Part shown: positions 9,870 to 15,322 of the stretch, piece by piece
How the letters are laid out: each line of letters begins with the position of its first letter
Position numbering within the stretch: position 1 is the first letter of the stretch
Assembly: GCA_013360745.1 (NCBI GenBank)
Contig: JABWBA010000030.1
Span: forward strand, 1-37,362
Length of the DNA stretch: 37,362 bases
Source of the DNA: Chthonomonadales bacterium
GTDB lineage: Bacteria > Armatimonadota > Chthonomonadetes > Chthonomonadales > CAJBBX01
Reading direction: 5' to 3'
The notes under the pieces: model-generated
What the model saw: only the letters and a program-made list of their open reading frames with translations
Databases searched by the model: none
Told to the model about the DNA's origin: nothing
Made by a program: the position numbers and the translations under genes

Positions 9870-10574
9870 ATGGATCTAATTCTGGCATCGGCATCACCGA
9901 GGCGCAGGGAGTTGCTCGGGAGAATAGGTGTGGAGTTTATCGTAGCTCCCTGTGCGTCTGAGGAGTCGAGTCCGCCCGGATTGGATCCCGAGGATGCCGT
10001 GATCCATCTCGCACTTGAGAAGGCGGTCTCGGTATCGTACATGCATCCGGCGTCGATCGTACTGGGCGCTGATACGGCTGTCGTCGCCGGGCCGGACGGT
10101 TCGGCGGTATGGCTGGGCAAACCGTCCAGTCCCATCGAAGCCGAAGAGATGCTCGCTCAGCTATCCGGGCGGGTTCATCGTGTCGTTACAGGGGTAGCCG
10201 TTGTCCATCAATCGACTGGCGAAGCGGATGGGATCCTCGAGGCCCGGTGTGAAGCGACAACATCGATAGTTGAGTTTCGATGCCTGTCGGATGACGAGAT
10301 CACGGGTTATGTTGCCTCTGGTGAGCCCATGGATAAAGCGGGCGCGTATGCAATCCAGGGTGGCGCAGCATCCTTTGTGAAGCGTGTAGTCGGTGATTAC
10401 TACAACATCGTGGGTCTCGGTCTTGAAAGCGTCAGCCGGCTTCTTAAGGGACTGATGCATATTCCCTTCGCGCCACCGCCACCGCCTCCGACGCTCTTTC
10501 CGATTCTGCCCGGCGGCGATCTGCGAAGCTATCGGCATCGCGGAGCGCCAGAGGAACTGCTCGCTCGACGTTGA
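9870..10574 (+). CDS. maf: Maf family nucleotide pyrophosphatase
   Basis: Maf/YhdE/YceF proteins hydrolyse dTTP, UTP or modified nucleoside triphosphates to monophosphates and have been linked to septum inhibition. The motifs LILASASPRRRELL (3-16), GADTAVV, LGKP, LSGRVHRVVTG and EPMDKAGAYAIQGGAA are all visible. The 234 residues exceed the usual 190-200. The extra C-terminal part begins with a Pro-rich run and is encoded where the gene overlaps the 3' end of dnaE2 by 131 bases, so the tail may be a by-product of a lost stop codon. It could also be a real low-complexity tail. Confidence 0.92.
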   Translation: MDLILASASPRRRELLGRIGVEFIVAPCASEESSPPGLDPEDAVIHLALEKAVSVSYMHPASIVLGADTAVVAGPDGSAVWLGKPSSPIEAEEMLAQLSGRVHRVVTGVAVVHQSTGEADGILEARCEATTSIVEFRCLSDDEITGYVASGEPMDKAGAYAIQGGAASFVKRVVGDYYNIVGLGLESVSRLLKGLMHIPFAPPPPPPTLFPILPGGDLRSYRHRGAPEELLARR

Positions 10575-13500
10575 GCACGGCGCTGCGGCCTCGACGTTCC
10601 ACCAACCCTTCTACAATCAGCGCCGGACAGGTGAGAAAAACCGGTGTGCAGGTATTAAGTGCGTTGCCGCTTACGGTTACGGGCAGAAGACCGGTCTCAT
10701 CTTCGATCTGCGCAAACAGCACCGGTTCTCCCGAGCGGGTGGGAGGCCGATGGGGCCTGATATTGAGACCAGCGACTCGTACACGACATCGCGACCTCAG
10801 CCGATGGATGTCTATAACAGGCCGAACGCGCCATCGCTCAAGCTGTTCGCGCATATACGATACAGCATGGCATTCGGCGCAGATACCTGTAAGCCGCCAT
10901 GTCCAGAGGAACTTATCCCATGGATGGAAGTCCGGAATGTCCCGGGCGGTTGGTGTAGGATAGGCGGCCGGATCGCCGAAGTAAAACCGCGCTCGTGAAC
11001 CCTGCCCTTCGTATCCTCCGCCTCCAGTCGCTTCAGAGCGATAGGCCTGCGCCATTCCGAGCGTCTCATCGAGTCGCCATAGAATGCCTCTGCGGTGTTC
11101 ATGCAAGCGATCGAACGCTCCACACAGGATGAGGTTTTCGAGGAGATCTCGGGGAAGAACCACTCGGGCGCAGAAGTCCAGAAGCGAGCGATATGGTCTG
11201 TCTCGACGAGCTTCAAGGATATCCTTGATCACCTGAGGCTTGATGCTGTCGACGATCCGAAAGCCCAGCTGAATCGTCTCATGCCCCACGGCCACGCATT
11301 TATCGCAGCTGTCGTTGATATCCACCGGCTGAATATGAACCCCTCGGCGCCGCGCCTCTCCGGCCAGCGTATTGGCGTTGTAGAAGCCCATGGGTTGATG
11401 GCTCATCATGGCTGCGAAGTACTCCGCGGGGTGATGGACGGAGAGATAGGCGGTCCTGCATCCCGTGAGGGCGAACGCGGCCGCATGACCTTCGATAAAG
11501 CCGTAGCCGCTCCAGCCTTCAATCTGTTCGAACAGTTCTGAGAGGCGTTCTTCGGAGATGGCCGGCCTGTGCCTGATCGATCGCTCAATGAACCATCGTC
11601 GCGGCTCTTCCATGGTATCCAGCTTCGCATGCCGTTTGAGACCCTTCCGGAAACGATCGGCTTCGGCGTCGGAGCATCCGGTCATTGCGGCGATTACTTC
11701 GTTGGCCTGTTCCTGGAATACGATGCACCCATAGGTCTTGGCCAGGATCGGGATCAGGCATGGGTGCGCCCAGTCAACCCGAGTCCATCCGTTGCGGCAC
11801 GCCACAAATCGGCGTACGATGTTGCCACGTATCGGACCGGGGCGGATCAAAGCGACGGATGCGACCAGATCCTCGAAATGGCGGGGTACCAGGACTGCTG
11901 CCAGAGCCAGCTGACCGGGGCTCTCGAGTTGAAAGGCTCCCACAGCCTCGCTGGCCTGCAGCGTGCGATATGTATCGGGGTCGTTCAGCGGTATCTGATC
12001 ATAACGAAAATCGGGCTGGAGCTCCTGGATCTGTCCCTCGGCGTCAGCCACAGCCGATAGGGTGCGAAGTGATAGGACGTCAAACTTGATGGCTCCCACT
12101 TCCTCCGCATCGTCTTTGTCCAGAGTCCATATCTCGCTGATCCCGCGAGCCGAAGGCTGGAGGGGGGCGATGGTGTTGAGAGGAACGGCGCTGATGACAA
12201 TGCCGGAGGAATGAGTGCCGATATGCCTCGGGAAGCCGGAGATTCGTCGACACAGGTCGAGAAGCATGCGAAAGCGTTCGATCAGATGCTGATGTGGACG
12301 GAGTTCGGCGTAACGGTCGAAGGCGGCTTCGATGCGGTCGGCGCGGACGCTGAAGTGCAGCCTCCTGGCCAGGAAGTCCACAGCGTCCGGCGGCAGATCG
12401 AGGGCTTTGCCGATATTACGGACCGCTGATCGGGCCCAGAAGGTGTAGAACGTACAGACCATGCCCACGTGCCCGGAGCCGTAGATATCGATAATATGTT
12501 GGAAGACCTCATCGCGTCGATCGGAAGGGAAATCCATATCGATGTCGGGAATACGCCCCGGCGAGAGAAAACGGGCGAATGGGAGGTTGCGGGCTATCAC
12601 ATCGACATCGGTCAGATACAGGCAGAACGCCACGCAGCAGTCAGCGGCCGATCCTCGACCAGTGCATCGGATGCCCTGTTTGCGGGTCCAGCGCACGATA
12701 TCCCATACCATGAGGAAGTAGTCGGCATATCCCATCTCGCCGATCACTTTCAGTTCATAGTCCAGTCGCCGGGTGATCGCCGGGGTGAGCGCATCGAATC
12801 GCGCCTGTGCGCCACGATAGGTCAGCTCCCTGAGATAGGAGGCGGGCGTATAGCCTGGCGGCACGGCATAGGATGGTGTGATGTCCTCGCCGCCCGGCAG
12901 CGCCGGCTCACAGGCCTCGCTGATGCGGACCGTCTCTGAGATGGCATCGGGACACCATGCAAAGAGTTCTCGCATGTCAGCCGGCGATTTCAGGCAGCGT
13001 TCCGCGTTTAGCGGGCGAAGCGGGTGAATCTGGTCCACATGAACGCCAGCGGCGATACAGCGGAGGATGTCGTGGGCGATGAAGTCGTCACGATCAGCGT
13101 GATGGACGTTGTTGGTAGCGACTACGCGAGCCTTTACGATATGGGCAAGACGAACAAGATCGGCGCAGAGCTGAAGTGAACCGGGGGTCAGGTCATCCTG
13201 AAGCTCGATATGGAAGGAGTCCGCGCCGAAAGCCTCCTGGAGTTCTCTGGCCGTTCGATCTGCATCATCAAGACGGCCCTGCTGGATGAATGAAGCGATC
13301 CGGCCATGCCTGCATCCGGAAAGGCAGATGATGTCGCTGGAGGCTTCGGAGAGTAAGCGATCCCATGGAAGTCGGGGCTGAAGTCGTCCTCCATGGTGAT
13401 ACGCCTCGGTAATCAGCTTGCATAACCGGGCATAACCGGTGCGGTTGCGCGCCAACAGGGTCAGGTGCGTTTCATCCTCAAGGGTGATCTCGCTGCCGAG

Positions 13501-13689
13501 AATAGGTCGTATGCCATGGGATTCGCATGCTGCCGAAAACTTGACTGCAGCGCAGAGGCTGTTGTGATCCGTCAGTGCGAGGGCGTTCGCTCCCTGAAGA
13601 GCCGCTCGGCGTACAAGGGAATCGATGTCGCTGCCGCCGTCAAGAAAACTGTAGGGGCTGTGCAGGTGGAGATGAATGAAATCGCTCAT
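10444..13689 (-). CDS. dnaE2: Error-prone DNA polymerase III alpha subunit DnaE2
   Basis: A C-family polymerase for translesion synthesis after DNA damage. ATG 13689 (MSDFIHLHLHSPYSFL) is the family start; an upstream ATG at 13743 would lie inside imuB. The 1081 residues include the PHP domain (HLHLHSPYS and LTDHN), the catalytic PDIDMDFP (381-388) and the third acidic residue in KFDVLSLRTL (Asp537), a helix-hairpin-helix region (YRSLLDF..., LILCGAFD) and a C-terminal OB domain (PVLFAQIEDETGLLPVTVSG). The block MGFYNANTLAGEARRRGVHIQPVDIN is typical of DnaE2, not of replicative DnaE1. A clean QxxLF-type clamp motif is not seen in the linker before the OB domain, where GSRARFYFG stands instead. 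It follows imuB with no gap and should be co-expressed with it. Confidence 0.95.
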   Translation of the reverse strand: MSDFIHLHLHSPYSFLDGGSDIDSLVRRAALQGANALALTDHNSLCAAVKFSAACESHGIRPILGSEITLEDETHLTLLARNRTGYARLCKLITEAYHHGGRLQPRLPWDRLLSEASSDIICLSGCRHGRIASFIQQGRLDDADRTARELQEAFGADSFHIELQDDLTPGSLQLCADLVRLAHIVKARVVATNNVHHADRDDFIAHDILRCIAAGVHVDQIHPLRPLNAERCLKSPADMRELFAWCPDAISETVRISEACEPALPGGEDITPSYAVPPGYTPASYLRELTYRGAQARFDALTPAITRRLDYELKVIGEMGYADYFLMVWDIVRWTRKQGIRCTGRGSAADCCVAFCLYLTDVDVIARNLPFARFLSPGRIPDIDMDFPSDRRDEVFQHIIDIYGSGHVGMVCTFYTFWARSAVRNIGKALDLPPDAVDFLARRLHFSVRADRIEAAFDRYAELRPHQHLIERFRMLLDLCRRISGFPRHIGTHSSGIVISAVPLNTIAPLQPSARGISEIWTLDKDDAEEVGAIKFDVLSLRTLSAVADAEGQIQELQPDFRYDQIPLNDPDTYRTLQASEAVGAFQLESPGQLALAAVLVPRHFEDLVASVALIRPGPIRGNIVRRFVACRNGWTRVDWAHPCLIPILAKTYGCIVFQEQANEVIAAMTGCSDAEADRFRKGLKRHAKLDTMEEPRRWFIERSIRHRPAISEERLSELFEQIEGWSGYGFIEGHAAAFALTGCRTAYLSVHHPAEYFAAMMSHQPMGFYNANTLAGEARRRGVHIQPVDINDSCDKCVAVGHETIQLGFRIVDSIKPQVIKDILEARRDRPYRSLLDFCARVVLPRDLLENLILCGAFDRLHEHRRGILWRLDETLGMAQAYRSEATGGGGYEGQGSRARFYFGDPAAYPTPTARDIPDFHPWDKFLWTWRLTGICAECHAVSYMREQLERWRVRPVIDIHRLRSRCRVRVAGLNIRPHRPPTRSGEPVLFAQIEDETGLLPVTVSGNALNTCTPVFLTCPALIVEGLVERRGRSAVLNVERAVPLALRDADSFADRRRAESERASEAVAVARREYASVP

Positions 13690-13715
13690 GCGGGAACGCC
13701 GTATAGCCCGTTCGA

Positions 13716-15221
13716 TTAATCCGACAACCCCGTGATGCGCCATCGGCAGGGGCTCTGGGCGTCGTTATAGGGGCGACAGAGGTCGAGAACCGCCAGAGAG
13801 GCTGTCTCGACTCGAAAGAAGAACTGCTCCTGAGGACGGCCTTGCGATAATCCGCCAGTATACGGGTTCATGGCTTCGGACCAGCGATCCCGGATTCGCG
13901 TGATGTTCAGCCAGGCTCCGTCGCGACGGTAACGAACGGGATCTCCTTTCCCATCAATGGCTATTTCGATCCCTTCGTCCAGACGCCGTGTCAGGGGGTA
14001 GGTCCATAACCGATGAGATTGGGGACGCTGGAGCCCTGTCGCGTTGTTGACGGCATGCCGTCCGAAGCGCTCACATACAAAGCTTCTGGCCGCTTCAAGA
14101 CGTCGTCGACGCTCGTAGGAGCCGGCTTCTGAAAGCGGATCATCGTCCAGAAGGAGAGCCGAAACGCTTCCCGTCGCTTCGGCGATCCTGACGCGCACTC
14201 GGATGTCCGTCGGCGGACCTTCCGGGGGGCGATCTGTGCAGTCGTCCGCGTGCGGATGCGGCTTCGTCCGTTCCTGCGACATCCGGTCCCACAGGCGTAC
14301 TGCCGCTCGAAAGAGGCTCCGTTCACGGGATTCCGGCACATATAGCTTTTCAGTCTGCACTCGAGGTCGCCCCTGTTCATGAGTCGCGATGAGCGTGATG
14401 GATCGACAGCGTCGGCCGCGAGCGGTCAGGATCGCGGCGATCTGTCTGGTGCACTGCCGCAGAGCTTCATGGAGCATGGCTGTATCAGGAATGCCATCAT
14501 CCAGATGCAGGGCATGCTCCACGCAGTCCGGAGGCCATTGCGGCTGTACCGGGTCTCGATCGAGACCTTGCGCCAGCCGGCGGAAAAGGAGACTGCGCTT
14601 GTGCAGGATGCGGTAGAGATCTCCTTCATCACAGGCCAGGACCTCGCCCAGAGTCTGGACGCCCAGGCGATGGAGCCGCTGATATTCCTCCCGGGTGAAC
14701 TGGGGCACCTCGTGAAGAGGTATATCTCGAAGAAGATCTGGCTCTCTACCGGGCGGCACAACAACGGGCGTAGTGGTTGTATTTCGGAGCGCAACTGCAT
14801 GCGCTGTAAAACGGGATTGGGACATGGCAATGTGGACAGATGTGCGGGATATATTGCGCAAGTCAAGCGCCATATCCTCAAGGCGTCGATGCAGATCCGC
14901 GCCGGAAAAGGAGGCGAAGCACATCTCGGGGGAGAGAGGCTCTACGCAGGAACTATCGCAGGAAAGACGATCCCAAAGATCCTCCGCCATCTCGTTGTAG
15001 AGAGGCAGGCGATAGGGGAGTACCAGAAGATCGGCACAGAAGATACGACCAGAAGAGATCGTTTGCCCGGGACGAACTCCTCGTTGAGACGCGTGTACAG
15101 AGACGGCGCGAAGGATGCCGTCGTCATCGGAAAGCGCAATGGGGGCGCTCTGGATTTCAGGCTGCACCGCCTGTTCGCAGGCGATACTGTAATCCGGTAG
15201 GTAGCAGCAGACGATCCACAT
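13716..15221 (-). CDS. imuB: Catalytically inactive Y-family polymerase homologue ImuB
   Basis: ImuB links DnaE2 to the sliding clamp in the SOS mutasome. The 501-residue protein has Y-family palm/finger order but its acidic residues are gone. The first motif reads CCYLPDYSIACEQ (residues 5-17), lacking the D-x-D-x-F-[FY] pattern. The second reads SPEMCFASFSG (97-107) in place of S-x-DEA-x-x-D. This is the hallmark of ImuB, which does not polymerise. The C-terminal 90 residues (GDPVRYRRDGAWLNI, QEQFFFRVETASLAVLDL, CRWRITGLSD) match a DUF6504-like beta module found at the end of many ImuB proteins. GGAG lies 7 bases before ATG 15221. dnaE2 starts 26 bases after its stop. No imuA lies beside it. 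Confidence 0.88.
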   Translation of the reverse strand: MWIVCCYLPDYSIACEQAVQPEIQSAPIALSDDDGILRAVSVHASQRGVRPGQTISSGRIFCADLLVLPYRLPLYNEMAEDLWDRLSCDSSCVEPLSPEMCFASFSGADLHRRLEDMALDLRNISRTSVHIAMSQSRFTAHAVALRNTTTTPVVVPPGREPDLLRDIPLHEVPQFTREEYQRLHRLGVQTLGEVLACDEGDLYRILHKRSLLFRRLAQGLDRDPVQPQWPPDCVEHALHLDDGIPDTAMLHEALRQCTRQIAAILTARGRRCRSITLIATHEQGRPRVQTEKLYVPESRERSLFRAAVRLWDRMSQERTKPHPHADDCTDRPPEGPPTDIRVRVRIAEATGSVSALLLDDDPLSEAGSYERRRRLEAARSFVCERFGRHAVNNATGLQRPQSHRLWTYPLTRRLDEGIEIAIDGKGDPVRYRRDGAWLNITRIRDRWSEAMNPYTGGLSQGRPQEQFFFRVETASLAVLDLCRPYNDAQSPCRWRITGLSD

Positions 15222-15276: not shown

Positions 15277-15288
15277 ACGTATATACGT
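15277..15288. repeat. Perfect 12-bp palindrome upstream of imuB
   Basis: ACGTATATACGT reads the same on both strands. It abuts and overlaps by two bases the larger inverted repeat at 15287-15302. Being about 55 bases ahead of the imuB start, it falls just downstream of the candidate transcription start and could be a second operator half or part of a composite site. Protein binding is not shown by sequence alone. Confidence 0.55.
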
Positions 15289-15322
15289 GTATATATGTAC
15301 ACTATGTTGTGTTGAATGTCAA
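15287..15322 (-). promoter_or_regulatory. imuB-dnaE2 promoter with overlapping palindromic operator
   Basis: On the minus strand a perfect -35 TTGACA (complement of 15317-15322) is followed, 17 bases later, by TACATA (complement of 15294-15299), about 70 bases before the imuB start. The -10 lies inside the 16-base inverted repeat GTGTACATATATACAC (minus strand; 15302 down to 15287), symmetric except for one pair. A repressor on it would block the promoter. A LexA-type SOS regulator is the obvious candidate given the genes, but the motif is not a standard Gram-positive (CGAAC-N4-GTTCG) or Escherichia-type LexA box. Confidence 0.6.

Follow-up and report, generated by a model that had tools for sequence, protein, structure and literature searches.

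A predicted LexA operator of the GTAGAC type at the imuB-dnaE2 promoter of a Chthonomonadales bacterium, and two LexA classes in the Armatimonadota

The window, that is, the whole 37,362-nucleotide stretch of DNA that was analysed, is contig C126 of the 3.32-Mb draft genome G000, from the phylum Armatimonadota. On its minus strand lies an error-prone polymerase operon, in which the dnaE2-like gene overlaps the end of imuB and one promoter is common to both:

10444-13743, minus strand: dnaE2-like error-prone polymerase III alpha subunit (Pfam alpha-subunit domains)
13716-15221, minus strand: imuB, Y-family polymerase-like, with an IMS domain (PF00817, 3.5e-12; PF11799, 4.6e-5)
15277-15288, no strand: perfect palindrome ACGTATATACGT, with secondary matrix matches between 15272 and 15297
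15286-15303, minus strand: proposed LexA operator AGTGTACATATATACACG, enclosing a 16-base palindrome (15287-15302) and identified by matrix ranking
15294-15299, minus strand: -10 element TACATA of the imuB-dnaE2 promoter
15317-15322, minus strand: -35 element TTGACA of the same promoter; several f1 orthologues retain it, again 17 bases from the -10

The imuB gene starts at position 15221; no imuA was seen next to it in the window, and an ImuB query against named genomes returned no match. The dnaE2-like product scores 760.8 bits against PRK05672, the error-prone polymerase, and 766.5 bits against PRK05673, in both cases below the cut-off.

On the minus strand of the window the promoter reads TTGACA-N17-TACATA, the spacing that the first-pass annotation had described, and the -10 element indeed sits inside a 16-base repeat with one mismatched pair. 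This repeat, GTGTACATATATACAC (15287-15302), matches in seven of eight pairs, the exception being a C:A mismatch at pair 6. The second palindrome is perfect, as had been claimed, but it is more than a neighbor of the first: ACGTATATACGT overlaps the downstream end of GTGTACATATATACAC by two bases, where the transcription start is expected. It may be a second, weaker operator or simply the start region, and it is not kept as such in the imuB promoters of relatives.

Sixteen-mers with at least seven of eight pairs occur 34 times in the window, where a Markov-1 model predicts 23 (sd 2), and perfect 12-mer palindromes occur 20 times, where 13 are expected (sd 4). Both kinds stand within 15 bases of each other at a single place in the window, the imuB promoter. 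Either palindrome alone is therefore not rare, while their close pairing is unusual. The argument for function is drawn from conservation in relatives and not from the palindromes themselves. That palindromes of such quality are common here is also compatible with an explanation by the promoter alone, in which the AT-rich palindromes represent an extended -10 (TGTACATA) and a start region that are conserved because transcription needs them, and no repressor acts. GTGTACA includes the TGn and the -10, part of it is also the extended -10 of the imuB promoter, and f1 lexA promoters likewise end in GTGTACACT.

ImuB matches were found in 18 of the 31 genomes of the order, and imuB orthologues in two families (f1 and f2) retain a palindrome resembling AGTNNAC-N4-GTNNACT at their promoters. 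The elements upstream of the orthologous starts include AGTGTACATATATAGACG (G008), AGTGTACATATATATGCA (G009), AGTATACTACTGTCTACT together with AGTAGACATATATTGACC (G011), GGTGTACTTTAGTACACT (G016), GGTGTATATTAGTATACT (G017), AGTAGACAAATTTACACT (G023) and AGTAGACAAAAATACACT (G024), among others. A matrix trained on the imuB orthologues, with G000 left out, ranks 15286-15303 first among 37,345 positions at 25.3 bits, the next position reaching 12.9; comparison of orthologous imuB promoters, which the earlier annotation had proposed, shows a conserved palindrome in two families. With a matrix built from f2 alone, five of seven f1 imuB sites were recovered, that of G000 included. Applied to lexA, the orthologue matrix finds its best match in the lexA contig of G000 at the lexA promoter site, and at p<0.05 it detects sites in 13 of the 22 lexA promoters that come from the order, but in no more than 3 of the 13 that come from Fimbriimonadia and their kin.

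The position of the imuB palindrome differs by lineage: it lies over the -35 in L018 and L019, over the -10 in L006, L007 and L008, and just downstream of the -10 in L015 and L016. Such variation in place relative to the promoter elements would be expected of an operator and not of a core promoter element. These three placements argue against a sequence kept for transcription alone, as does conservation that extends past the -10.

The box predicted for the group from these comparisons is AGTAGAC-N4-GTMYACT, in which AGTAGAC is the strong half and the other half varies; the G000 copies at imuB (AGTGTACATATATACACG, AGTGTAC...) and at lexA (AGCAGACATATGTTGGCG, AGCAGAC..., diverged from AGTAGAC) would be diverged variants of it. 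In the regions that precede imuB, recA and uvrA, with lexA promoters left out, GTAGACA was the highest-ranking of 6,660 seven-mers and was present in 13 of 41 gene-genus units; third place went to AGTAGAC. Several f2 recA promoters carry GTAGAC, and uvrA of G005, G008, G009, G010, G015 and G016 carries GTCTACT. In G000 itself, the box was not seen upstream of uvrA, nor at recA, which closely follows other genes. Since recA is not part of every known SOS regulon, a box at recA is not a necessary feature of a LexA regulon; nor is a box at uvrA a necessary feature of a LexA/SOS regulon.

The first-pass annotation had put forward GTGTA-N6-TACAC itself as the SOS box, to be abandoned if no conserved copy stood upstream of other SOS genes or imuB orthologues. 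In the 3.32-Mb draft this string occurs once, at the imuB promoter (the reversed control pattern occurs twice), and it is absent before recA, lexA and uvrA of G000; as a literal string it is therefore abandoned here as a group motif. The wider suggestion, that LexA acts here through an operator of an undescribed kind, is largely upheld by the sequence comparisons: the site is conserved, it resembles a LexA operator, and its box differs from the Gram-positive and proteobacterial ones. Across the 31 genomes, exact matches to AGTRKACN4GTMYACT were no more frequent than those of the control, at 10 each, so that the full palindrome cannot serve to mark sites genome-wide and AGTAGAC emerges as the stronger of the two halves. 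The one exact match in G000 (C18:17174) precedes an alcohol dehydrogenase and is probably due to chance. The pattern AGYRKACATATRTNNRCG was likewise set aside: it occurs exactly solely at lexA and imuB of G000, but was derived from those two sites, and with two mismatches its counts in G000 are near control. A covariance-model scan of G000 with model R1, which holds too little information, gave no match and missed the known sites too.

In L305 (G011, AGTAGACGTTAGTACACT) and L296 (G001, AGTATACAAATGTATACT) the box precedes genes that are related and encode a small protein bearing a sigma-like helix-turn-helix, and a perfect AGTAGACTTCAGTCTACT lies at L304:1501-1518 (G003), 172 bases before a dnaA-like gene. 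In G008, TGTGTACATATATTGGCT and near copies recur about ten times on many contigs (e.g. C267:143-160), often near contig ends, and probably belong to a mobile or repeated element. A conserved leader of 100-150 nt, CCGGAGGCCACYCGCG...GCCGCTGCGTCCTCACGGAG, precedes f2 recA in L150, L151, L152, L154, L157, L159, L160, L163, L164 and L166. Its consensus helix has 14 pairs, 7 of them changed on both sides, and it found no match in Rfam at E<=0.5; it is possibly an unreported structured RNA.

One lexA was found in G000 (C77); its product has a winged-helix domain, with matches to PF01726 and PF00717 and a score of 205 bits against the LexA equivalog TIGR00498 (cut-off 111). Its self-cleavage residues are intact (cleavage site AAG93, S128 and K165), its recognition segment reads SLRGVTVHL, and its nearest named relatives are the lexA of an uncultured Chthonomonas (74%) and then those of Fimbriimonadaceae. 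A second, weaker S24 peptidase match lies at C54:8882-9025 (L003), with no accompanying match to the LexA DNA-binding domain. Nearly all lexA promoters of the order carry AGTAGAC, and those of Fimbriimonadia carry GTAGAC. Here, too, the motif is not a core promoter element, because it directly follows the -35 in f1 and follows the -10 in f2.

Armatimonadota LexAs with SLRGV[TS][VI]HL in the recognition segment were designated class B. GTAGAC is present in the own promoter of 40 of 46 class-B genes and of 3 of 92 others (Fisher 1e-24, a p-value inflated by shared ancestry, which the test ignores), G000 being one of the six class-B exceptions. Conversely, GAACN4GTT is found in the own promoter of 45 of the 92 other LexAs and of none of the 46 in class B. 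That GTAGAC tracks LexA class is a further point against the promoter-alone explanation, which we regard as unlikely.

Class B forms one Armatimonadota clade (support 100/99; SH-aLRT 80 for the C-terminal part alone), and both classes occur together in G035, G126, G068, G087 and G140. In G087, boxes of the CGAACN4GTTTG type and GTCTAC/GTAGAC boxes stand together on imuB promoters, while in G055, G108, G120 and G125, where class A alone was found, the imuB boxes are solely of the GAAC/CAAAC type. At L246-L249, G087 has at least four imuB-like genes, every promoter of which carries GTCTAC/GTAGAC boxes and most a GAAC-type box as well.

An operator for another dimeric regulator, specific to the mutasome, would account for the departure of the imuB variant AGTGTAC from the lexA-promoter consensus AGTAGAC, and for the weak score of 15286-15303 with a matrix built from lexA promoters alone (4.2 bits, rank 37 of 37,345). 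Yet the relatives' imuB sites in L008, L018 and L019 contain exact AGTAGAC, and the imuB boxes of G087 match its two LexA classes, which leaves a regulator other than LexA quite improbable.

It thus appears likely that 15286-15303 is the operator by which LexA represses imuB-dnaE2, a proposal that draws on conservation of the site, the association between LexA class and box, and the intact lexA gene; against it count the deviation of both the imuB and the lexA site of G000 from AGTAGAC and the lack of a visible box at its recA and uvrA. Binding, repression and induction are extrapolated from the LexA family: a class-B dimer (SLRGVTVHL) would cover the -10 and block RNA polymerase, and upon DNA damage RecA filaments would trigger LexA self-cleavage, allowing the error-prone polymerase genes to be expressed.

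The LexA box of Firmicutes and Actinobacteria is CGAACN4GTTCG. It serves the same protein family and the same logic, and other Armatimonadota families have it at their imuB and lexA genes. It was never seen at class-B lexA promoters (0/46), and neither the imuB nor the lexA promoter of G000 contains GAACN4GTTC. LexA-controlled imuAB-dnaE2 cassettes are known, for example, from Caulobacter. These place an error-prone cassette under a LexA box, as proposed for G000, but the box is GTTCN7GTTC and they include imuA, which was not seen beside G000 imuB. The recognition segment of E. coli LexA is SPNAAEEHL, as opposed to SLRGVTVHL in G000. The E. coli box, TACTG(TA)5CAGTA (PMC9578287), is similar in being a palindrome of about 16-20 bases with an alternating TA center that lies over the promoter, but its half-site is CTGT, whereas the Armatimonadota box has GTAGAC/GTGTAC. 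Proteobacterial CTGTN8ACAG half-sites are not present at the imuB site, which has GTGT/ACAC instead. The prediction that the box would differ from both Gram-positive and proteobacterial ones therefore agrees with the imuB promoter, where neither type occurs.

LexA binding motifs shift sharply among bacterial groups, 17 having been reported by 2021 (PMC8565304), and none of the boxes of five species in Table 1 of PMC9578287 resembles the GTAGAC type. No paper linking LexA motifs with Armatimonadota was found in the open literature, to which the search was confined. The GTAGAC-type SOS box, found in no paper searched, is a first predicted box for the phylum.

Duplication of LexA followed by motif switching is a published model (PMC8565304), which the Armatimonadota resemble in having two LexA classes and two box types, with both in some genomes, and from which they differ in that both boxes stand on single imuB promoters of G087. 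We lean slightly toward the reading that this phylum has long possessed a second LexA, which uses a GTAGAC box of its own; some families would have it together with the GAAC-type LexA, and in Chthonomonadales and Fimbriimonadia it is the sole LexA found, so that the SOS regulon there would have changed its box. Genomes with both proteins, and with both boxes on one imuB promoter, would be living intermediates of that switch. A phylum that combines two LexA classes and two boxes with promoters carrying both would allow a direct test of the duplicate-and-replace route, by which a repressor might change together with its many operators.
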